Assembly: GCA_021846505.1 (NCBI GenBank) | Contig: JAJZWV010000023.1 | Span: 1-47,626 of the forward strand | DNA length: 47,626 nt | Source of the DNA: Bacillota bacterium | GTDB lineage: Bacteria > Bacillota > Sulfobacillia > Sulfobacillales > JAIMBI01 | Direction of reading: 5' to 3' | Part shown: one piece after another, positions 33,359-45,891 of the stretch | Layout of the letters: the number at the start of each line of letters is the position of its first letter | Numbering within the stretch: position 1 is the first letter of the stretch | Notes under the pieces: model-generated | Told to the model about the DNA's origin: nothing | The model's input: only the letters and a program-made list of their open reading frames with translations | Database searches by the model: none | Program-made: the position numbers and the translations under genes

Positions 33359-35485
33359 TCAGCCGGGAAGCTGGTCGCGCCGCACGACGTGCGCCGCCAG
33401 CGCCACCTCACTGAACCACATCGGAATCAGCTGGCCCGACGCCCACGCGTCCAATTGGCTGAGCGCGCCCGGGCCTCGCTCGGCCGTCCCGCCAGGCACC
33501 ACCCACCCGGAGGCGTCCCAGTTGCCGAGGTCAAACACGTAGCGGGCCACCGATGCCCCCGTCACCTGGAAGCTTCCCGGCCCATACGAGGCCGCGCGCA
33601 CGGTATCGCCGTCGCCGGGCAGCTCCACCGCCAGGGTGGGCCAGCCTGCGTCTGAATCCTTGCTGGCACGGGGGTGCTGGGCGGCCAGGCGGTGAAGCGC
33701 CCCCCAGCGCCACCGGGACGGATCCGGGCCGCCTTGGGCGACTAGCTCGGCCACCGCCTGATGAAAGGCGGCCTCGGCAGCGCCAGCGGGCAGCACGGCC
33801 GCCAAGTCCACGGCGCGGGCGCGGAGCCGCGACAGCGTAGCGACGGCGCCGGGATGCGGCGCAGGGCCCGCCGCCTCCCGGGCGAGCTCCTCCCCGACAG
33901 CTTGGGCCAGCATCGCGGCCGCCACCCGCTCGCGCCAAGCGTTGTACACCAGCGGCAGCGGGCTGTCGCGGTCCAGGGTCCCGTCCCATCCTGACAGCGC
34001 GGCCAGTACGGCCGCCTCTGTGGGGCCTTCCGGCGAGAGGCGGCCTGCCCAGCGCGCAAAGGCCGCGGCCGGCGCCGACTGCACGTCCACATGCACCGCC
34101 GTCAGGGCGTCGGCGGTCCAGCCGCCCTCGCGCTGGAGCAGCAGCGCTTCGATGCGGCGCGCTCGATGCTCGGCGGCAAACACCGGAGCTATGGCGTAGG
34201 GATAGTCGGGGCCCGCCACCCGATTGTTGGCCGTGACCACCATGTCGCTCGGAGGGTCTATGGATCGCGGCGCTTCCTCAAATGGGATGAACCCGGTCCA
34301 GTCGTGGCGGGGATCGGCGGCCGGCACGGGGCCCAGCAGATTGTCCACCGGGCGAATGGGAACCCGGCCCCGCATGACGTACCCCACATGCCCGTCCACA
34401 TCGGCACCGAGAAAGTTGTTCACCGGGTCCACCCACTCGCGCTGCGACTGAAGCAGCGCTGACAAGCTGTCCGCGTGCAGCATAGTCCAGAGACAGCGAT
34501 ACTGCGCCGGAGCCGGCTCCAGCGCTGTCGCGCGCAGCACCAGCACCGTGTCCGGACTAAGCCACGCCACCACCGGGCCCACTGCCGTGCGGCCCAGGGC
34601 CACCGGCGCGTCGGGCCCGCCGGCCACCTTCACCGCCGCCGCCTCCGTGGCGACATCGGTGCGGCGGGCAACATACAGGTCCTGCGCATCCGCCCCGGTG
34701 TGGGTGATGGCCCACGCGACCCGGCGGTTGTGGCCAAAGTGCGGCAGCCCCGGAACGCCCGGGAACGAGAGGCCAATCGCATTCAGCGTCTGCCCGGTCA
34801 GATGCACCTGATAGTACACATTGGGCAGCTCCACCTCCCGGTGGGGATCCCCGGCCAACAGCGGGTGCCCCGACGCGGTCCGCGACCCGCCCAGCACCCA
34901 GCTGTTGCTGCCCTGCTGGTCGTCATTGGCGGCGCCACTCGTGCGCACCCCGTCCAGATCGACCGGGCACCCGCTGGCCGAGGCGCCCGGGGGCACAATG
35001 AGCCGCGAGGCGCCCGACAGGAGGCGGACCAGCGCCACCAGCGCTTCGCCGCCGGCCTGGCGGGCCACTCGGCTCCACCACAGCTTCCGCTCGATGACGC
35101 CCATCAGGAGGTGGCGTGCTTTGAAGACGGCCAGCGAGTCCACGCCCCGCCAGGCTTCCCCGCTCGCGGCACCCGCCGCCAAGGCGGCGTTCACGCCTGC
35201 CGTGTAGGCATCCACCATCGCCCGGCTGGACGCGTCGAGGCCGCGGTACTCTTGCTCCACCACACCCCGAATGCCCAGCGAGCGCCAAAACTGGTCGGAG
35301 GCCAGCATGGCCGGCCCACAGTGCTCGGCCAGCTGGCCATAGGCGCGCCGGCGGTCTTCATCCATCTGGGTCCACCGATCTTGCGCGTGGACCCACCCCT
35401 GCCCGAAAAAAGCACCGCTGTCCTCCTGGGCACGCACATGCGCGACACCATGCTCATCGCGCCGCACCTCCACCACGCCGGACAC
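33359..35485 (-). CDS. Penicillin-acylase-family (S45) N-terminal nucleophile hydrolase
   Basis: A 708-residue Ntn-hydrolase precursor. The alpha part (1-192) opens VEVRRDEHGVAHVRAQ and GQGWVHAQDRWTQMDEDRR; the self-cleavage site is Gly192-Ser193 (QQGSNSWVLGGSRT), making Ser193 the N-terminal nucleophile of the beta chain. VVTANNRVAG in the beta part provides the oxyanion Asn. Family enzymes hydrolyse amides such as penicillins, acyl-homoserine lactones or cyclic lipopeptides. Unlike most, there is no signal peptide: GTG 35485, after GGAAGG, starts directly at the conserved domain, implying a cytoplasmic enzyme or a missed upstream start. Its stop nearly touches the decayed MFS gene. Confidence 0.9.
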   Translation of the reverse strand: MSGVVEVRRDEHGVAHVRAQEDSGAFFGQGWVHAQDRWTQMDEDRRRAYGQLAEHCGPAMLASDQFWRSLGIRGVVEQEYRGLDASSRAMVDAYTAGVNAALAAGAASGEAWRGVDSLAVFKARHLLMGVIERKLWWSRVARQAGGEALVALVRLLSGASRLIVPPGASASGCPVDLDGVRTSGAANDDQQGSNSWVLGGSRTASGHPLLAGDPHREVELPNVYYQVHLTGQTLNAIGLSFPGVPGLPHFGHNRRVAWAITHTGADAQDLYVARRTDVATEAAAVKVAGGPDAPVALGRTAVGPVVAWLSPDTVLVLRATALEPAPAQYRCLWTMLHADSLSALLQSQREWVDPVNNFLGADVDGHVGYVMRGRVPIRPVDNLLGPVPAADPRHDWTGFIPFEEAPRSIDPPSDMVVTANNRVAGPDYPYAIAPVFAAEHRARRIEALLLQREGGWTADALTAVHVDVQSAPAAAFARWAGRLSPEGPTEAAVLAALSGWDGTLDRDSPLPLVYNAWRERVAAAMLAQAVGEELAREAAGPAPHPGAVATLSRLRARAVDLAAVLPAGAAEAAFHQAVAELVAQGGPDPSRWRWGALHRLAAQHPRASKDSDAGWPTLAVELPGDGDTVRAASYGPGSFQVTGASVARYVFDLGNWDASGWVVPGGTAERGPGALSQLDAWASGQLIPMWFSEVALAAHVVRRDQLPG

Positions 35486-36292: not shown

Positions 36293-38791
36293 TTAATGAG
36301 GCGGGGCGGCCGCCGGCAGCGCTTCCCGCTCGCTCCCGGCCATGAGCTGGCCCAGCACGTAGAGGTGCTGGGCCCCATACGCCGTCCGGGAAGCCAGCCC
36401 GGCGGCGGCTCGCTGGGCAGCGGCGCGAAACTGGCGCTGTCCTTGCCACACGGCCTCGGCAGCCTCCACGAAGGCCGCCGCCGTGTACGATCGGGCCACC
36501 ACGCCCGCCCCCGTCTCACGCACGCGGTCGGCGGGCGCCCCAAACGGCGACACCACCGCTGGCAGCCCGGCCATCCAGGATTCCGACAGCGTCAGGCTGT
36601 AGGTTTCCGCAAAAGCCGACGGCAGAAGCGCGGCAAACGCCTTGGAGGCGGCCAAGCGGCGAAACACTTCGCGGGGGGCGTATGCGCCGCCAAACGACAC
36701 CCCGGCCACGTTTTGCAGGGTGGGCCACTGGCGGCCGGCGGTGCCGACAAAATGCACCCCGATGCCCGCCGCCACCAGTGCCGGCACCAATTCGCGCAAG
36801 AGGGCTTCGCCTTTCTGCACGCCTTGGTATCCGAGCACCACCACCACCCGCTCGGGATCCGCGAGGTCCAGCGGCCGCCGAGGGAACTCCCGCCACGGCG
36901 GGATCACCACCGCCGGGCTTGGGCCCAAAACTGCCTCGACTTGCGCTTGCGCCGCCGTGGACGGGTACTCAATCCGGTCCGCCAGGGCCATCGTGGCCTG
37001 ACTGTCGCTGCGCCAGCGCCGAATGTCGCCCCAGCGCGGCCGGCGCTCCTCCTTGAGCTCCGGCTTGGCCGCCAGGCACGCGCGGCAGCCGTCGGGGTCG
37101 TCCGGCGCCCCGCAGTGCCGCGCCTCGGGCCCCATGAGGGTGTAGTCGGGGCACAGCGCCGCATAGTCGTGCACCGCCAGCAGCACGGGCAGGCCCAGGG
37201 ACTTGGCCGCCGCCACCGCCACGGGAGCCGCGCCCAGCATGTGCACCACATACATCACATCCACCCGATAGCGGCGCAGCATGTCGGCCCAATCGGCCAC
37301 CAGCACCGGCGTGCGCACCACGCGGCCTCCGTCCCAGCTGACGCCGGCAAAGGGCCAGGAGGAGCGCGGGATTTGGCGCTCCCGGAGGCTCTCCGCCGGC
37401 TCCTCCAAGTACACCCGCGCCGCATCCGTCCAGCTGACCAGCACTTCGTAAAGCGGCGACAATAGCTCCACCAGCGTTCGGCTGGTGCTTTCCACCCCGC
37501 CCGAAGACTGATGGGGATCGCCCCACAGCTGGAGCCACAGCCGAGGCTTTCGCTTGGGCCGGTAGATGCGCAGCTGGCCCTCCCAGGCGCGGCGGACTTC
37601 CGCCACGTGGCCGGCAGCCAGAAAAACCTTCACGGAGAGCCGCAGATCCGGATGGCGGCGCAGCAGCTCCTCATCCGCGGCGCTGCTGCCCATCGTCGTA
37701 TCGCGCACCACGCCGTGTTCGTCCATTGATCGGTGGCCATAGTGAAACACAAACGTGCGGTCATCCAGCAGATTGGCAAAGCCCTGAGCGCGCGCGCGCC
37801 GGCAAAAGTCCACTTCTTCGCCATAGCCTAAGCCGAACGCTTCGTCGAGTGCACCCACGGCCTCAAGCGCCTCGCTGCGGATATATAGGCAAAAGCCCAC
37901 CCCGGACGGCACCTCAGGATACCACCGGGAGGCCCCGGCTGGCCGGCTCTGCAGGAAAGCCGAGCACTGGTCGGCCAGCCGGAGCGAGCACGGAATGGAC
38001 AAGTCCGCCGCCCAATTGGACAGCGGGGTGGCCGTGGCCACGGCCGGGCGGCTCCAGGCCGCCTCCGCCAGCTTCGACAGCCAGTGAGGCGTCACCACCG
38101 CGTCCGAGTTCAGCAGCACCACGTCGCTCCCTGCCGGCCGCCGCGCGATGCCTTCGTTGGCCGTGGCGGGAAATCCCCGGTTGTCCTGGTGCCGGATGAA
38201 CGCGGCCCCAGGCCAGCTGGCCGCCAGCTGGGCAATGCGCGCGGCGTCCGCCGCGTCCGGCGTGGCGTCATCAATAATCGCCAGCGACACGGGACAGTGC
38301 ACCGTGGTGGCAGCCAGTGCCGCCAGGCACTGCTCCAAGTAGGCGACCGCCCCATACACCGGCACCACCACGTGCACCGGCCGCTGCTTGCGGAAGACCT
38401 GGCGGCCCCCGGCGCCCAGCGGCTCGCCTGGCACCAGCCCCGCCGCGCGGCACGCGTCTGCAACGGCCGCCGCAGCGGGCCCCCACACCAGCCCCATCTC
38501 CGGCAGCTGCTCCACCAAGGCGGCAAAGTTGTGTGGCACCGCGGCGGAGGTGAGCAAAATCGCCTCCACCGGGCCACCCGCCGCCGCCAGGTTCGGCGCC
38601 AGTACGAGAAACCCGTGCTCCCGCCAATATTGGGTGGCCCGCACTCGCTCAGGCTCAGGGCCACACACCACCAGGCGGCGCCGCCAGCTCACCGCGGCCA
38701 ACAGCGCTCGCAGGGCTTCGCGGTCGGCCTCTTCCTCCCGGGGATCCTGGGCCGTGCCTATCCGGGCGCCCGCGGACCACGCGTCATCCAT
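36293..38791 (-). CDS. Two-domain glycosyltransferase (GT2 fused to GT4-like)
   Basis: An 832-residue cytoplasmic protein. After an unassigned N-terminal 130 residues, a GT2/GT-A domain (about 138-375) shows VVVPVYGAVAYLEQC, IIDDATPD, DNRGFPATANEG, LLNSDAVV (Asp230 as DxD-like) and the acceptor-site stretch YGEEVDFCRRARAQG. A GT4/GT-B domain (about 460-815) follows, with GGVESTSRTLVELL and the E-x7-E motif in AETYSLTLSESWMAG. Such fusions add two sugars in a row to surface polysaccharide or glycoprotein. The ATG overlaps the stop of the preceding GT gene by 8 bases. It is the last gene of the trio. Confidence 0.88.
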   Translation of the reverse strand: MDDAWSAGARIGTAQDPREEEADREALRALLAAVSWRRRLVVCGPEPERVRATQYWREHGFLVLAPNLAAAGGPVEAILLTSAAVPHNFAALVEQLPEMGLVWGPAAAAVADACRAAGLVPGEPLGAGGRQVFRKQRPVHVVVPVYGAVAYLEQCLAALAATTVHCPVSLAIIDDATPDAADAARIAQLAASWPGAAFIRHQDNRGFPATANEGIARRPAGSDVVLLNSDAVVTPHWLSKLAEAAWSRPAVATATPLSNWAADLSIPCSLRLADQCSAFLQSRPAGASRWYPEVPSGVGFCLYIRSEALEAVGALDEAFGLGYGEEVDFCRRARAQGFANLLDDRTFVFHYGHRSMDEHGVVRDTTMGSSAADEELLRRHPDLRLSVKVFLAAGHVAEVRRAWEGQLRIYRPKRKPRLWLQLWGDPHQSSGGVESTSRTLVELLSPLYEVLVSWTDAARVYLEEPAESLRERQIPRSSWPFAGVSWDGGRVVRTPVLVADWADMLRRYRVDVMYVVHMLGAAPVAVAAAKSLGLPVLLAVHDYAALCPDYTLMGPEARHCGAPDDPDGCRACLAAKPELKEERRPRWGDIRRWRSDSQATMALADRIEYPSTAAQAQVEAVLGPSPAVVIPPWREFPRRPLDLADPERVVVVLGYQGVQKGEALLRELVPALVAAGIGVHFVGTAGRQWPTLQNVAGVSFGGAYAPREVFRRLAASKAFAALLPSAFAETYSLTLSESWMAGLPAVVSPFGAPADRVRETGAGVVARSYTAAAFVEAAEAVWQGQRQFRAAAQRAAAGLASRTAYGAQHLYVLGQLMAGSEREALPAAAPPH

Positions 38792-39989
38792 GGCTGTCGG
38801 CAATCTCCTTCCACAAAATCTGCCACGGCCGCTCGCGGTCGGCCGCTTCGCCCAACAGCCGGGTCCCAAATGGCGCCAGACACTGCTGCATCCACGGCTC
38901 CATGGGAGCACCGGTCTGCACCAGCTGAGAGCCCGGAGCCGCCAGCCGCGACAGATACTGCTCATACGGGTACGGCTCCACGTGCAGCTCCACATGAGGC
39001 CCCCAGTGCAGGTTCAAGGCGGCTGCCGCGTCCCTGAGGTGCCGCCGCACCTCGTCGGCCGACTCCAGCTCTGGGTCCGCCAGCACCAGCCACGGATGGG
39101 GGGCTCCATAGCGCCCCACGCCATCGGCCCACCGGAGCGCTCGGGCCGCGGGCGGCTCAAGCCAGGGCGCCATCCCCATAACCGGGATTCCGAAAGGCAC
39201 CACCGCCGGAGCCAGCGGCAGGTGAAGGCCGCGGCGGGCCCCCACCGCCCGGCCCCGCCACTTCCGCTCAAACAGGCGGCCATGGCGGCGCAGCAGCGCC
39301 CGGGTGCGCTCCCGGTCCTCCCCAAACGACACGCTGCCCACGTGGTGCACATAGACGCGAGTGGAGATGCCCAGCTGGTAGCCCGCCATCTGCGCACGGA
39401 CACCCCAGTCGTCATCTTCAAACATGCCAGGGCTGAAGCGCACGTCCAGCCCTCCGATGCGGTCCACCACGGCACGGCGCGCCATGAGGCAAAAGCCTAC
39501 CAGCCGGGCGGTGGGCTGAACCGAGTGGCCGGGCTGCTCCCGCCACGCGGCAGCGTAGTCCAAAAACTTGCCCGGCGCATACGGGGCCGGGCGCTGCTGC
39601 GGCCCGGTGACCTGGTTGGACACTGGGCCAATCAGGCCGAGGGCGGGATGCGCCTCCAAGTCGGCCACCAAATCCTCATCCCAGTGCCGCGGCACCAGCG
39701 CGTCATTGTTCAAGAGCACGAGATACTCTCCCGCGGCCGCCTGCAGCCCTTGGTTGGCCCCGGCGGGAAACCCCACGTTCACCGCGTTGTCGATGCGCCG
39801 CACAGACACCAATCCCAGCTCGGGGGGCAGGCGATCTAAAAAGGCCCGGGTGCCGTCTTCGGAGGCGTTGTCCACCACGATAAGCTCAGTGGGAAGCGAG
39901 GCGTTCATCAAGACGTGGCCAATCGCTTCGGCCGTCACCTCCACGTGGTTCCATGCCAGCATGACAATGCTGACCCGCGGCCGCGTCAC
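38784..39989 (-). CDS. GT2 family glycosyltransferase
   Basis: A 401-residue GT-A enzyme. VTRPRVSIVMLAWNH begins at GTG 39989, overlapping the GT4 stop as GTGA. VVDNAS (39-43 region), NVGFPAGANQG, LLNNDALV (Asn95-Asp96 of the DxD-like site) and FEDDDWGVRAQMAGY (catalytic-base loop) are the rhamnosyltransferase-like GT2 pattern. The last 130 residues form an extra domain with an unknown role (GPHVELHVEPYPYEQYLSRL). The longer open frame upstream is read through the GT4 gene in another frame and is rejected. It very probably works with both neighbours on one glycan. Confidence 0.9.
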   Translation of the reverse strand: MTRPRVSIVMLAWNHVEVTAEAIGHVLMNASLPTELIVVDNASEDGTRAFLDRLPPELGLVSVRRIDNAVNVGFPAGANQGLQAAAGEYLVLLNNDALVPRHWDEDLVADLEAHPALGLIGPVSNQVTGPQQRPAPYAPGKFLDYAAAWREQPGHSVQPTARLVGFCLMARRAVVDRIGGLDVRFSPGMFEDDDWGVRAQMAGYQLGISTRVYVHHVGSVSFGEDRERTRALLRRHGRLFERKWRGRAVGARRGLHLPLAPAVVPFGIPVMGMAPWLEPPAARALRWADGVGRYGAPHPWLVLADPELESADEVRRHLRDAAAALNLHWGPHVELHVEPYPYEQYLSRLAAPGSQLVQTGAPMEPWMQQCLAPFGTRLLGEAADRERPWQILWKEIADSHG

Positions 39990-41080
39990 TGCGCCGTGGT
40001 GGGCGGCACGCCCAAGCGCTCCAAGATTCGCGGCACGGCGTCTTGGGCCGCCGGCGGCCGCCACGCCGACAGCCCGTGTACCAGCGCCTGCCTCATCTGC
40101 GCGGTGGCCCGCTCCCAGGTGTGGCGGGCCGCCTCCGCGCGCGCCCGCAGGCGGAGATCGTGTGACGCGGCGGCGCCGCCAGCCAGCACCTGCACTACGG
40201 CGCGCGCGGCGGCATCCACATCTCGCGGCGGCACCACCCAGGCGGTGTCCCCTCCGCGCGCAAATTCTTCGGTCCCGATGGGCTGCGTCACCACGGCGGT
40301 CCCAGCCGCCATCGCCTCCAACACGGGCAGATGAAAACTTTCCGCCCAGGAGACCGCCAGCATCACCTGCGCCCGCTGATACGCCTGGCGGAGCCGGTCG
40401 TGGGGCACGGTGCCCAGGCGGTGGATCCAAGGCTGCTCGGGCACCCGCGCCGCCGTACCGAACACGTGCCACTGCACGTCCAGGTCGGGGACCGCCGCCC
40501 GCACCAGCTCCATGGTCCGGTACGCCTCGGCGGTGCCTTTCCACAAAAACGTGTGAGCAAAGCTAATGACCACCGGCGGGCCGTCCGCCCACGCCGGCAG
40601 TGGGCCCTCGTCCGGGGCGTCCACGCCGTTGTGCACCAGCATGGGCCGCGATCCGTACAGGCGCTCATACTGCGCCTGCACCCAGCGCGAGTTCGCCAGC
40701 CGATACAGCGGCAGGCGGTAGCAGTAGCGCGCCGCCTCCGCAAACGAGGCGGGATCGGGCTCATCCACCGCGAAAATTTCCTCCATGTGCTGCATGAAGT
40801 GCACCTTGAGCTGGGCCCGCGCCTGCGCCACCACGGGCACGGTGGTGAAGTGCGTGGCCACCTGCACGTCGGCCGCGGGAAGGCCCTCCGGGTCAAGCTG
40901 CGCCACCGGAAGCGTTCGCACCACGCCCGGCAGCACGTCGCCTACGCCTGGATCGGGTGGGGTCATGCTGACCAGCGCCACATCATACCCCGCCTGCGTG
41001 AGCCCGGCGGCATGCCGCAGGACCGAAAAGACGCCGCCGCTGGCCGTAACCGACGGCAGCAAAAATTGCACGCGTGCCAC
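39986..41080 (-). CDS. GT4 family glycosyltransferase
   Basis: A 364-residue GT-B enzyme. The N-terminal domain has the early Gly loop (TASGGVFSVLRHAAG), the C-terminal domain the SFAHTFLWKGTAEAYRTME sugar-nucleotide loop and the E-x7-E motif in WAESFHLPVLEAMAAG. GTG 41080 is preceded by AAGGGGTGG. First gene of the overlapping GT trio, 114 bases after the HNH nuclease gene, so it may share transcription with the upstream genes or have its own promoter. Sugar specificity cannot be read. Confidence 0.9.
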   Translation of the reverse strand: MARVQFLLPSVTASGGVFSVLRHAAGLTQAGYDVALVSMTPPDPGVGDVLPGVVRTLPVAQLDPEGLPAADVQVATHFTTVPVVAQARAQLKVHFMQHMEEIFAVDEPDPASFAEAARYCYRLPLYRLANSRWVQAQYERLYGSRPMLVHNGVDAPDEGPLPAWADGPPVVISFAHTFLWKGTAEAYRTMELVRAAVPDLDVQWHVFGTAARVPEQPWIHRLGTVPHDRLRQAYQRAQVMLAVSWAESFHLPVLEAMAAGTAVVTQPIGTEEFARGGDTAWVVPPRDVDAAARAVVQVLAGGAAASHDLRLRARAEAARHTWERATAQMRQALVHGLSAWRPPAAQDAVPRILERLGVPPTTAQ

Positions 41081-41193: not shown

Positions 41194-42099
41194 CTAAGAG
41201 CCCGTGGACAGAAATTCGGTCCAGCGCTCGGCCAGCCGCTCCCGGTCCGGCGCCAGCGCGCGCTCGGGGGGCACCGTCAAGGGGGACCCGTGCAGGTCTT
41301 TCAGCCCATGCTCCAGCATAGGGCCATCGCGAATGGCGGCAATGTCGGGGCGCACAGCCACGACCAGGTCGGGGCGGACGCCCACCAAATTTTGGTCGTA
41401 CGCCGCATGGTGAATCTTGCACAGCGACAAGCCGTTCGGAACCACCGGCAAGCCGCGCGGGTGGGCGTCCGGCAAAATGTGCGCGGCGTCCAAGAGGGTG
41501 GGCACCGCCAGCCGGCACATGGCGCACCGGTAGTGATACGCGTGCAGCACCTGAGCCCGAAAGCGCGCCTGATGCAGGCGCGCGCGCGTCACCCGCTCCA
41601 CCCAGTCCCGCTGGTCCCCCGAAAGCTCCTGGCCCACCGGCACCAGAAGCTGCCCCTCCAGCGCCAGCACAAACCGGAGCTGGCGCGGCTCCTCCCCCAC
41701 GACCCACACCGGATAGATGGGCAGATACAGGGCCGGCGCCACTCCGAGAAACCAAATCATCTGCAGGCCCGCTTCCTGGGCCCGGCGAACCGCCCGATTG
41801 GGCGGGGCGGACGGGTCCGTCCCGCGGTACATGTAGCGCTGCAGGCCTTCGGGGCCCAGCGCGTCTTCGTACGGCGGCGTCTTCCCCGGCGGCGTATAGG
41901 TGGTGCGGATGGACAGCGCCGCGTCGAGCTGCCGCGGCTTCATGATGCCGCCCTGCTCGTTCATGAGCGCAATGGGCTCCCCATCCACCGCCAGCCCGCG
42001 AAACTCCTCGCGCCGGAATGCCCGCCCGTGAGAAGGGTCCATGCGGTCGAGCCAGTCCATCGCCAGGGCCCGCACACGCCGCTCGTACTCCAGGTTCAC
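41194..42099 (-). CDS. HNH endonuclease with SRA-like N-terminal part, candidate type IV restriction enzyme
   Basis: A 301-residue protein. The C-terminal HNH domain shows Cys192-x2-Cys195 (CAMC), LDAAHILPD with His207, Asn222 (PNGLSLC) and His230-His231 (IHHAAYDQ), the HNH_2 pattern. The N-terminal 180 residues contain GIMKPRQLDAALSIRTTY, YMYRG and LYLPIYPVWVV, resembling the SRA-like domain of ScoMcrA-type enzymes that recognise modified DNA (from memory; not checked). No methyltransferase gene lies nearby, which fits a modification-dependent nuclease. GTG 42099 follows AAGGGGGC. It lies 26 bases after the MFS-cNMP gene and is probably co-transcribed with it. Confidence 0.75.
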   Translation of the reverse strand: MNLEYERRVRALAMDWLDRMDPSHGRAFRREEFRGLAVDGEPIALMNEQGGIMKPRQLDAALSIRTTYTPPGKTPPYEDALGPEGLQRYMYRGTDPSAPPNRAVRRAQEAGLQMIWFLGVAPALYLPIYPVWVVGEEPRQLRFVLALEGQLLVPVGQELSGDQRDWVERVTRARLHQARFRAQVLHAYHYRCAMCRLAVPTLLDAAHILPDAHPRGLPVVPNGLSLCKIHHAAYDQNLVGVRPDLVVAVRPDIAAIRDGPMLEHGLKDLHGSPLTVPPERALAPDRERLAERWTEFLSTGS

Positions 42100-42125: not shown

Positions 42126-43943
42126 CTACGCCGACCGCAGCTGGCTCATGGCCTCGGTCGTGCGCCGCAGGCGCTCCGACACGACGCGCGCCAAGTCCAG
42201 CAGCACAATCTGCGCCAGGCCCGGCTCCGCCGCGCTCAAGCGCTGGAAGCCTTCCCAGCTGAGTGACCGCACCCGGCATGGCTCTGCCGCCCGAATTGAC
42301 GCGGACCGCGGCAGGCCATCCAAGAAGGCCTGCTCGCCAAACACCGAGCCGGGCCTCATCTGGGTCAGCCGCTGCTCCTCGCCCTCGGCATTCGCCCCCA
42401 CCACGTCCAGCTCGCCGTCCTCCAGCAGGTACACGGTCCGGTCCGCGGCCCCGGCCTCCACCAGCATCGCTCCTGCCTCAACCACGGCGGAGGATCCGTA
42501 GCTCCACACCCGATCCCACCCCGACGCGTCCAGCGACTCCAGAAAGACAATTGGGGTGGTGTTGACCGGCACCCCGAAGATGGCCGTCTCCGACACCCGG
42601 GCGATGGGGAGAATCGCCCCACCCCCCTGGAACATGGGCACCGCCGCCACCTCGGCCGCCGGCGCTGGCGCCGCCGCAAAGCCGGGGGCGCGCACCTGCA
42701 CTTCCGCCGCGGCCAGCTGGCGCCGGGCCAGCGCCCCCGCCCCCTCCCGAAACGCCCACGCGCCCACCGCCGCCACGGCAATCATCCCCAGCCACAGCAC
42801 ACTCGGCGCACTGCGCAGCAGCGTGGGACCTACCGAGGTGCCAAGAAACATGGCACTGTACTGCGCCATCCCCACGACGCTGAAGTACGGCGCCTCGCGC
42901 CCGGGCAGCGGCAGCTCCCCCAGGAGCTGGTTCAGCTGGGCCGCCCACAAAATTTCGCCCAGGCCGTACAGCACCAAGGCCACAATCCAGACCCCGACCG
43001 AGTCCGCAAACCCTCCCACCGCGAGCCCGCCGGCCGCCAGCACGGCCCCCACGAAATACACCTGCGCGGGCTGAAAGCGCGCCAGATATTTGCCGACCAT
43101 CGGCTGAAACGCGAGCACCATCACGGTGTCAATCGCCAAAAGGGGGCCCAGCAGCTGGGAGCCATTCGAGAAATTCCGAGTCAGATCCAGCGGCAGGGTG
43201 GCATTGAGCTGCGACTCCACCAAAATCGCGGACAGCATGCTGACGGCGGCCAGCAGCAGCGCGCGGTCGCGCGCCAGCGTGCTCAGGGCCGCACCAAACC
43301 CGGGCGCGGGGCCTTTGGACTCATCCGGCGCGCCGCCATTCTCCCGCCCAAACACGGCGGCAATCGGGACCACCAGCGCGGCCGTCAGCCCGGCCACCAC
43401 AAACAGCGCCGTGGGCGAGTGCCCAGCGGCCAACAGCTCCGCCGCCACCAAGAGGCCCACCATGACACCCGCGTTGCCGATCCAATCAAGATAGTTCTGC
43501 ACCTGGCCGCGGTACTCCGGCTTCACACTGCGGTTGGCCAGCGCGTCGACGGTATTGCGGCCCACCGGCCGAATGGCGCCGTAGGCGACCAAAATCACCG
43601 CGACCGCCCAAAGGGGGTGCGCCAATGCCAGGGCCACCAGCAGCAGGGCTGTCAACAGGCCGCTGGCCGCGTAGGATCGGACCAAGCCGAGCCGGTCCGC
43701 CGCATAGCCCCCCACCACGCCCAAAAGCCACCCGGAGAGAAATGGCAGTCCCACCAGCACCCCGCTGATGGGCAGGGAGAATCCCAGCACCACGTGAAAG
43801 TAGATGGCCAAAAAGGGCGTCAGCATGTAGCCCGCCACTTGGCGCAGCCCATCCACCACCAGCAGCAGGGTCAAGCGGGGATTTAATACCTCGCGAATGC
43901 GGGGGGCCATCGGTCGCTCGGCATTTGCGGCCGCTTGGCTCAC
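42126..43943 (-). CDS. MFS transporter fused to a cyclic-nucleotide-binding domain (intact copy)
   Basis: A 605-residue protein. About 12 membrane segments of MFS type (1-405; motif A loop GGYAADRLGLVRSYAASG) precede a linker and a Crp-like domain (about 490-595). The phosphate-binding cassette reads FGEQAFLDGLPRSASIR, with the Glu and Arg needed for a cyclic nucleotide present. Transport may therefore be gated by cAMP, cGMP or another dinucleotide, with no DNA-binding part. GTG 43943 follows GAGGAGGAG; an internal ATG at codon 12 is an alternative. It lies downstream of a broken near-copy. Confidence 0.85.
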   Translation of the reverse strand: MSQAAANAERPMAPRIREVLNPRLTLLLVVDGLRQVAGYMLTPFLAIYFHVVLGFSLPISGVLVGLPFLSGWLLGVVGGYAADRLGLVRSYAASGLLTALLLVALALAHPLWAVAVILVAYGAIRPVGRNTVDALANRSVKPEYRGQVQNYLDWIGNAGVMVGLLVAAELLAAGHSPTALFVVAGLTAALVVPIAAVFGRENGGAPDESKGPAPGFGAALSTLARDRALLLAAVSMLSAILVESQLNATLPLDLTRNFSNGSQLLGPLLAIDTVMVLAFQPMVGKYLARFQPAQVYFVGAVLAAGGLAVGGFADSVGVWIVALVLYGLGEILWAAQLNQLLGELPLPGREAPYFSVVGMAQYSAMFLGTSVGPTLLRSAPSVLWLGMIAVAAVGAWAFREGAGALARRQLAAAEVQVRAPGFAAAPAPAAEVAAVPMFQGGGAILPIARVSETAIFGVPVNTTPIVFLESLDASGWDRVWSYGSSAVVEAGAMLVEAGAADRTVYLLEDGELDVVGANAEGEEQRLTQMRPGSVFGEQAFLDGLPRSASIRAAEPCRVRSLSWEGFQRLSAAEPGLAQIVLLDLARVVSERLRRTTEAMSQLRSA

Positions 43944-44058
43944 AGCGGGACTCCTCCTCGCTTTAGCGCTCGTTGAAGCTCTCATGGACCGGGCGCTTGA
44001 ACCCCCCGACTTACTGAGGGGCGACGTTCGCCACCAAGGACCCAATATCCTGCCAGCA

Positions 44059-45891
44059 TCACCGGCGGCGGCGGCCCTCAGCACGCCGCTTCCTAGCGTG
44101 AGGCTGCGCCGACCGCAGGTAGCTCATCGCTTCGGTCGTGCGCCGCAGGCGCTCGGACACGACGCGCGCCAAATCCAGCAGCCCGGCCGGCGCCAGATTC
44201 GGCTCCGCCGCGGAGAGGCGCTGGAAGCTTTCCCAGCTGAGCGACCGCCCCCGGCAAGGCTTGGCGGCGCGAATCGACGCCGAGCGCGGCAGGCCATCCA
44301 AAAGCGCCTGCTCCCCAAACACGGCGCCGGCCGCCATCTGCGTCAGCCACGGCTCCTGGCCATCGGCCGCCACCACCACGTCCAATTCGCCGTCCTCCAA
44401 CAGGTACACGGCTCGGTCCGCCGCACCCGCTTCCACCAGCATCGCCCCCGCCTCGACGGCCGCGGACGATCCGCAGCTCCACACGCGGTCCCGAGCGGGC
44501 ACAGCCGGCGCCTCCAGAAACATTAGCGGGGCGGTCTTCACCGAAACCCGGAAGATGGCCGTTTCCGACAGGCGGGCAATAAGGAACCTCGCGCTGGCCC
44601 CTTCGAACATAGGGCCCGCCCCCACCTCCGCGCTCGGCGCCGCTGCCTCGGCAAATCCCGGCGCCCACACCTGCCCCTCCGCCGCGGCCAGCTCGCGCTG
44701 CGGCAGCGCCCGGGTGCCCGCCGCAAACGCCCGCGCCCCCGCGACCAAGCCGACCCCCAGGACATCGGGCGCACTCACCAGCACGCCGGCCCGGTGCCAG
44801 TGGCCAGAAAGAAGCCGCCGGACTGCGCCATCCCCACCACGCTGAAGTACATCGCCTCTCGCCCCGGCCGCGGCAGCTTCCCCAGGAGCTGGTTCAGCTG
44901 CGTCATGAACTGCACTTCGCCAAAGCCGTACAGCACCATCGCGGCGATCCACGCCCCGATGGAGTCGCCCAGCCCTCCGACGGCCAGCCCCACCGCGATC
45001 ACGATGGTCCCCAGCAAAAACACGGACGTTGGGCCAAACCGCCTAGATACTTGCCGGCGATAGGCTGGAGCCCTAGCACCATCACGGTGTCAATGGCCAG
45101 CGGCGGCCCCAGCAACTTGGCGCCGTTGGCAAAATGCTGGGTGAGCTCCAGAGGGACCGTCGCATCCACCTGGGCCGCCACAAAGATAGTGGGGAGCATG
45201 GTGACGGCGGCCAGCAGCAGCGCGCGATCCGCCGCCAGCACGGCCATTGCCGCGCCAAACCCTTGGTGGGCCGCTGGGCCTTTAGGCGGCCCGGACTCTT
45301 CGCGCCGAAACACGATGTAAATGGGCACCACCAGCGCCAAAAACATCCCGGCCACCACAATCCGCACCGTGGCGGAGTGGCCAGCCGCCAGCAGCTCGGC
45401 CGCCACCAGCAGGCCCCCATGATGCCCGCCTGGGCGGTCCAGTACAAATAGTTTTCCACCGCGCCGCGGTGCTCCGGCTTGGCACTTCGATTCGCCAGGG
45501 CATCGATGGCGTTGCCGCCCACGGGCCGAAGCGCCCCGACGGTCACCAGGATCACCGCCACCCACACGAGGCCGTGCACCAAGCCCACCGCCGCCAGGGC
45601 GAAGGCCATCAGCACCCCGCCGACGGAATAGGCGCGCAGCAGTCCCAGCCGATCCGCCAGATACCCGCCCACCACACCCATGAGCCACCCAGACAGATAC
45701 TGCAAGCCCACCAACACCCCGCTGACCGGCGGATTGAAAGTAAGTGGCCAAAAAGGGCAGCAGCATAAAGCCGGCGACTTGGCGCACGGCACTCACCACC
45801 AGCAGCAGGGTCAAGCGTGGATGTAATACCTCGCGCATGGACGGAGAGGCGGAACTTTGGGGCGGTTTGCTTCCGCGGCAACTTGGCTCAT
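44059..45891 (-). pseudogene. MFS-cyclic-nucleotide-binding fusion, decayed tandem copy
   Basis: Segments of the neighbouring fusion protein recur in the same order across changing frames: ATG 45891 (MSQVAAEANR), MREVLHPRLTLLLVVSAVRQ, ISGVLVGL-type loop as PPVSGVLVGLQYLSGWLMGV, LLVAAELLAAGHSATVRIVV, FLLGTIVIAVGLAVGGLGDS, and the cNMP cassette FGEQALLDGLPRSASIR. At least five frame breaks (about 45840-45890, 45720-45745, 45415-45425, 45020-45050, 44775-44800) and loss of the stop (TAG to CAG at the position where copy one ends) make it non-functional. It arose by tandem duplication. Confidence 0.85.

Follow-up and report, generated by a model that had tools for sequence, protein, structure and literature searches.

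In Mycobacterium tuberculosis, the proteins Rv3728 and Rv3239c combine an MFS carrier and a cyclic-nucleotide-binding domain (CNBD) in a single chain, together with a patatin-like domain. In the Bacillota, cAMP signaling is considered rare. Fusions of an MFS carrier with a CNBD are on record as uncharacterized proteins (PMC10710835), and those with a C-terminal CNBD have been surveyed by Willson et al. 2019, a study considered here as it is represented in that review (refs 146-147 of PMC10710835). Regulatory domains are commonly found fused to MFS carriers, but the functions of such fusions are not known according to the review, which cites no characterized MFS-CNBD (PMC10710835). The window analyzed here, that is, the whole stretch of 47,626 nucleotides of a Bacillota contig (JAJZWV010000023.1, assembly GCA_021846505.1), contains one such fusion gene beside a decayed copy of itself (Table 1). 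The most probable reading of this locus is that an exporter-like MFS carrier is gated directly by cAMP from a sensor-controlled receiver-cyclase.

Table 1. Position, strand, and supporting evidence of the features of the window.
Feature	Coordinates	Strand	Basis or remark
Live MFS-CNBD fusion gene, 605 aa (protein P0001)	42126..43943	(-)	MFS_1 and cNMP_binding profiles; GTG start; SD AGGAGGAG
MFS carrier domain (P0001 residues 2-389) with 12 TM helices predicted	42735..43898	(-)	Pfam, AlphaFold model, Foldseek
C-terminal cyclic-nucleotide-binding domain, P0001 residues 448-591	42129..42560	(-)	Pfam; predicted fold; CRP/GlxR/MtbCRP folds matched
Phosphate-binding cassette FGEQAFLDGLPRSA (E523, R532, S533 of P0001)	42300..42341	(-)	E, R, and S invariant in 6/6 fusions
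T581-T582, aligned with CRP T127-S128 (adenine recognition)	42156..42161	(-)	Invariant in 6/6 fusions
Decayed tandem duplicate of the MFS-CNBD gene	44104..45891	(-)	Four frameshifts, lost stop; directly upstream of the live gene
HNH_2 endonuclease-like gene	41194..42099	(-)	Syntenic in genus only
Glycosyltransferase (group 1)	39986..41080	(-)	Syntenic in genus only
Glycosyltransferase (family 2)	38784..40544	(-)	Listed ORF may exceed the gene; match begins at residue 133-143 in two relatives
Double glycosyltransferase (family 2 and group 1)	36293..38995	(-)	Profile search, genus synteny

The two domains of the live gene lie in a single open frame, and each was recovered by its Pfam profile, MFS_1 at 1.9e-31 (109.7 bits, curated cut-off 33.4) and cNMP_binding at 2e-17 (63.3 bits, cut-off 27.5). 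The GTG at 43943 is the best start, because a VSQ start is common to the relatives; the motif AGGAGGAG lies seven bases upstream, and the frame closes with the stop at 42126. No DNA-binding domain or helix-turn-helix was found in the protein by Pfam, which separates it from the Crp/Fnr transcription regulators, and the C-terminus is the C-helix of the CNBD, nine residues past the Thr-Thr pair. The architecture given in the preliminary description, a full MFS carrier followed by a cNMP-binding domain with no DNA-binding helix, is thus the one found.

The AlphaFold model of the full-length fusion shows twelve long helices in the membrane part, with the CNBD as a separate unit. The best Foldseek matches of the carrier half are the drug/proton antiporters LmrP, YajR, and NorA, and a TM-score of 0.82 to LmrP, by target length, places this half within the MFS fold. 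It also resembles the MdtH and YdeE models, with scores below the cut-offs of those models. These likenesses of sequence and predicted structure point to a carrier that is exporter-like and probably proton-driven. The linker between the carrier and the CNBD, QGGGAILPIARVSETAIFG, is conserved in the genus and largely in a genome from another genus of the same family (G004), while residues 398-454 of the full-length model score under 50, a low confidence at the linker from which no coupling geometry is readable.

The CNBD, predicted from an alignment of ten relatives, reaches a pLDDT of 94, and its fold matches the CRP-type cAMP receptors. The Glu and Arg of the phosphate cassette, which had been noticed previously, are E523 and R532, and the pattern FGEQAF.DG..RSA is invariant among the fusions. 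The fusion proteins are 40-74% identical, yet the cassette and the Thr-Thr pair are unchanged. This invariant pair, at the end of the C-helix, aligns with CRP Thr127-Ser128 in two MAFFT modes and in HMMER, with a Pasteurella CRP serving as the reference. Ser128 is the adenine contact, a position occupied by Asn for cUMP and by Glu for cGMP (PMC11224242). The predicted receptor carries Thr at the C-helix adenine-contact positions, where Thr/Ser marks CRP-like cAMP specificity, and the residues of the pocket indicate that cAMP is the most likely ligand. The preliminary description had proposed a transporter controlled directly by a cyclic nucleotide or dinucleotide. Control by a cyclic nucleotide is well supported by the canonical pocket, the adenine pair, and the strict co-occurrence with a receiver-cyclase; nothing points to a dinucleotide, which was rejected as a candidate, the predicted pocket being of the cAMP type.

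The remaining CNBD proteins of the six genomes with a fusion are Crp/Fnr-like and without the cassette, except for the solo CNBDs of G004 and of G019, a member of another family. Given this, the fusion is the sole predicted cAMP receptor in the four members of the genus (G000-G003), a statement that refers to assemblies that are 93-96% complete.

The gene directly upstream is a dead copy with the same architecture, recovered in pieces of roughly 47-71% identity by translated searches that change frame along its length, and its CNBD remains in frame (3.2e-15). Two adjacent genes of the same architecture, one of them dead, had been described at the outset, with at least five frame breaks in the upstream copy; the broken frame stands, and the count is corrected to four frameshifts plus a lost stop. 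In the codon alignment, the lesions consist of one 17-nt deletion and three 1-nt deletions, all of them frameshifting, and the loss of the stop codon. For the changes unique to each sequence, the rate at codon positions 1 and 2 relative to position 3 is 0.75 in the dead copy, 0.37 in the live copy, and 0.16-0.19 in the sister lineages (dead vs. live codon-position changes, Fisher p=0.008). As the first two codon positions carry an excess of changes, in addition to the four indels, an assembly error is an unlikely cause of the dead copy.

The live and dead copies cluster as a pair (support 0.999), which places the duplication within this lineage. The dead copy is confined to the species of the window, and no second copy was found in the three other members of the genus, which have one copy each. 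In two of these (G001 and G002), the corresponding place is occupied by two other transporter-like genes, which look like MFS by sequence (L043 12040-14727, L044 2981-5663). The codon-position ratios indicate that the live copy has been retained by purifying selection, less tightly than in the sister lineages, and this weaker constraint (0.37 vs. 0.16-0.19) was counted against the explanation by cAMP gating.

The distribution of the fusion was followed in 61 genomes, consisting of the window's own and 60 relatives, and in a wider sample of 154 genomes of the class. In the first sample, G000-G004 and G019 contain the full fusion, and the count is no higher, at six, among the 154. No full fusion was found beyond this group on the plasmids searched, nor in a 398-genome sample of the phylum at E<1e-40, and a search of a contig collection recovered close relatives only, with no full fusion outside the group. 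Among the 61 genomes, exactly these six have class III cyclases above the cut-off, and PF00211 cyclases occur in 14 of the 154 class genomes, all six fusion genomes included (hypergeometric p 1.8e-7 for the overlap, ignoring phylogeny).

The association becomes closer when the cyclase itself is considered. Only the same six of the 154 genomes have a response-regulator/class III adenylate cyclase (REC-AC) in complete form, and close orthologues (E<1e-90) are found in these and in G095 alone, where most of the receiver domain has been lost (L105 556-1323, G095:C52), a DUF3307-like gene adjoins, and no CNBD of the fusion's family was found. Neither the fusion nor the cyclase was found in G005, of the same family, or in G006, of the same genus as G004. 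The residues that define a class III adenylate cyclase are present in 6/6 of the REC-AC sequences: both metal Asp, the Lys/Asp pair for the substrate, and an Asn/Arg pair. In the class III cyclases, the former pair determines the choice of ATP, and the latter serves the transition state.

About two independent lineages (family f1 and G019) underlie the co-occurrence, with presence and absence matched around each; this small number, like the location of the fusion and the cyclase on different contigs in five of the six genomes, was counted against the link. It is the cyclase that follows the distribution of the fusion, and not the HNH and glycosyltransferase genes. The fusion is found only where the matching cAMP-making enzyme is present, which makes it look like a transporter that cAMP switches directly.

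Within 11 kb of a single strand, G019 has the MFS-CNBD gene, an NTPase-like gene, a solo CNBD, a 1767-aa sensor kinase with the domains Pkinase-AAA-GAF-HisKA-HATPase, and the REC-AC. The NTPase-like gene (L049 13875-15563), which separates the fusion from the solo CNBD, encodes a 563-aa protein with weak matches to STAND/AAA NTPases. The same type of kinase is found directly beside the cyclase in G003 and within the cyclase's cluster in G004, where the assignment is based on the start of its sequence, its length, and its location. A DUF3307 protein adjoins the REC-AC in G004 and G019 (L047 16360-16707, L049 6423-6776), with the call in G095 made by the look of the sequence.

In the window's own genome (G000), an N-terminal piece of the kinase gene with a stop and a frameshift lies near the end of contig C41 (C41:22800-23770; L109), a C-terminal piece lies at the beginning of C27, beside a serine-recombinase-like ORF (C27:3-1265; L051), and the middle of the gene was not found. 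The sensor kinase upstream of the REC-AC looks broken in this genome, a point against the explanation by cAMP gating, with the contig ends leaving room for an assembly gap. If the kinase is broken, the circuit of this species may be driven otherwise or be decaying; it may be losing its sensor, which would be in line with the decay of the tandem copy and the weaker constraint on the live one.

Solo CNBDs of the fusion's family, without a carrier, occur in G004, G019, and G112. In two families, a solo CNBD whose cassette is canonical has nonribosomal peptide synthetase (NRPS) genes on one side and a PPTase gene on the other (L047 5215-16196, G004:C141; L093 273-6670, G112:C101), the PPTase being called by Pfam in G004 and by the look of the sequence in G112; in G004, the receiver-cyclase and a kinase of the same type flank this cluster. 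Such an arrangement suggests that the stand-alone CNBD places the peptide product of these clusters under cAMP control. The most closely related carrier that has no CNBD is found immediately upstream of an NRPS gene (L094 4260-10001, G034:C61), a hint that the carrier family is able to export peptides. While these clusters made a nonribosomal-peptide exporter a tempting candidate, it was rejected, given that G000-G003 and G019 have no condensation domains and a nonribosomal peptide therefore cannot be the general substrate.

The proposed mechanism begins with the Ser/Thr-kinase/AAA/GAF/histidine kinase, which would phosphorylate the receiver-adenylate cyclase. The cyclase would then make cAMP, which would bind to the cytosolic C-terminal CNBD, and the conserved linker would relay the change in the CNBD to the carrier, the activity of which would be set by cAMP. 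The binding of cAMP, the phosphorelay from kinase to cyclase, the gating and its direction (on or off), and the substrate are inferred. A broader proposition, put forward here more tentatively and with somewhat less than even confidence, is that of a complete cAMP pathway running from sensor kinase to receiver-cyclase, in which the sole receptor is a secondary transporter and no transcription factor takes part, in a lineage of the Bacillota that is devoid of the cAMP-type Crp.

The location of the live copy, followed in the same orientation by an HNH nuclease and three glycosyltransferases, as had been noted earlier, might suggest that the set forms a single functional surface or defense island, signal-gated in the preliminary description. 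The true start of the HNH gene is the GTG at 42099, its longer ORF overlapping the end of the CNBD out of frame. In 4/4 species of the genus, the fusion, the HNH gene, the three glycosyltransferases, and a penicillin amidase gene follow one another in the same order, a point in favor of an island; the penicillin amidase family gene (window 33359-35485, 6e-157) lies beyond the glycosyltransferases. This link ends at the genus, with none found outside it: the HNH gene is on a separate contig from the fusion in G004, no HNH relative was found in G019, and the fusion exists in both without these neighbors. When three proteins were scanned with PADLOC, the HNH gene matched HNH restriction models only, and the glycosyltransferase tested had no match. 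As the link is limited to genus synteny, it provides no evidence of joint function, and an island, for which no support was found, is rated as very improbable. Equally remote is a Pycsar-like antiphage system, in which a cyclic pyrimidine made by a cyclase would activate a membrane CNBD effector, even with the HNH gene next door and the weak matches of the CNBD to the PADLOC Pycsar effector and PycC models (6e-10 to 6e-5). The cyclase has the Lys/Asp pair for ATP, is a receiver fusion with a link to a sensor kinase, and is not adjacent to the MFS-CNBD gene in five of the six genomes; the base-contact position is Thr-Thr rather than the Asn of the cUMP receptors (PMC11224242), and the fusion is inherited with genus synteny and has a full MFS carrier in place of a short TM effector, so that the locus falls outside the Pycsar systems.

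The other alternatives accept the domain and question its role. The CNBD may bind cAMP as an anchor, a dimerizer, a stability tag, or a cAMP buffer, leaving transport unchanged, and the solo CNBDs of G004, G019, and G112 indicate that the domain can work alone; the conservation of the linker that joins it to the carrier, in the genus and largely in G004, and the maintenance of the fusion order in both lineages make this role unlikely. It is more doubtful still that the CNBD is a relic that binds no nucleotide, or has another ligand, as in many Crp/Fnr proteins. Most of the CNBD-bearing genomes of the order have no class III cyclase, the Crp/Fnr proteins examined lack the cassette, and the live copy is somewhat relaxed, all of which would fit a relic, but the cassette and the Thr-Thr pair are invariant across such divergent fusions, and their presence follows the cyclase. 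Direct gating of the carrier by cAMP is the preferred reading.

The surveyed MFS-CNBD fusions, as represented in the review, have the same domain order, an MFS carrier and a C-terminal CNBD, and a regulatory role has been proposed for them (PMC10710835); relative to that account, the present lineage differs in the identification of a specific cyclase and kinase partner. Comparative genomics supplies a candidate ligand, source enzyme, and sensor for one MFS-CNBD, which makes direct cAMP gating simple to test. Fusions of this type have been noted before; within the limits of the literature search, the novelty lies in the pathway proposed for this one and in a transporter being the only predicted cAMP receptor. 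Direct gating would, if true, add a class of cAMP receptor to the Crp proteins, kinases, and channels.

By comparison with the descriptions of Rv3728 and Rv3239c, the present fusion ends at the C-helix of the CNBD. It shares the CNBD fold and the cassette with the CRP/GlxR-type cAMP receptors (PDB 4ev0, 3r6s, 1i5z), with Thr-Thr replacing Thr127-Ser128, but has no helix-turn-helix, its CNBD being attached to a carrier. Like the channels MloK1 (1vp6) and SthK (4d7s), it is a membrane protein with a cytosolic C-terminal CNBD of related sequence, although it is a secondary carrier rather than a channel pore, with no membrane fold in common. The Pycsar effectors PycTIR and PycTM also fuse a CNBD to an output module, whereas the present fusion lacks the cUMP-specific Asn and has an ATP-type cyclase partner. 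The drug-proton antiporters LmrP, YajR, NorA, and MdtH are the best neighbors of the carrier half in fold and sequence, at about 14-18% identity in the structural matches, but they have no CNBD.
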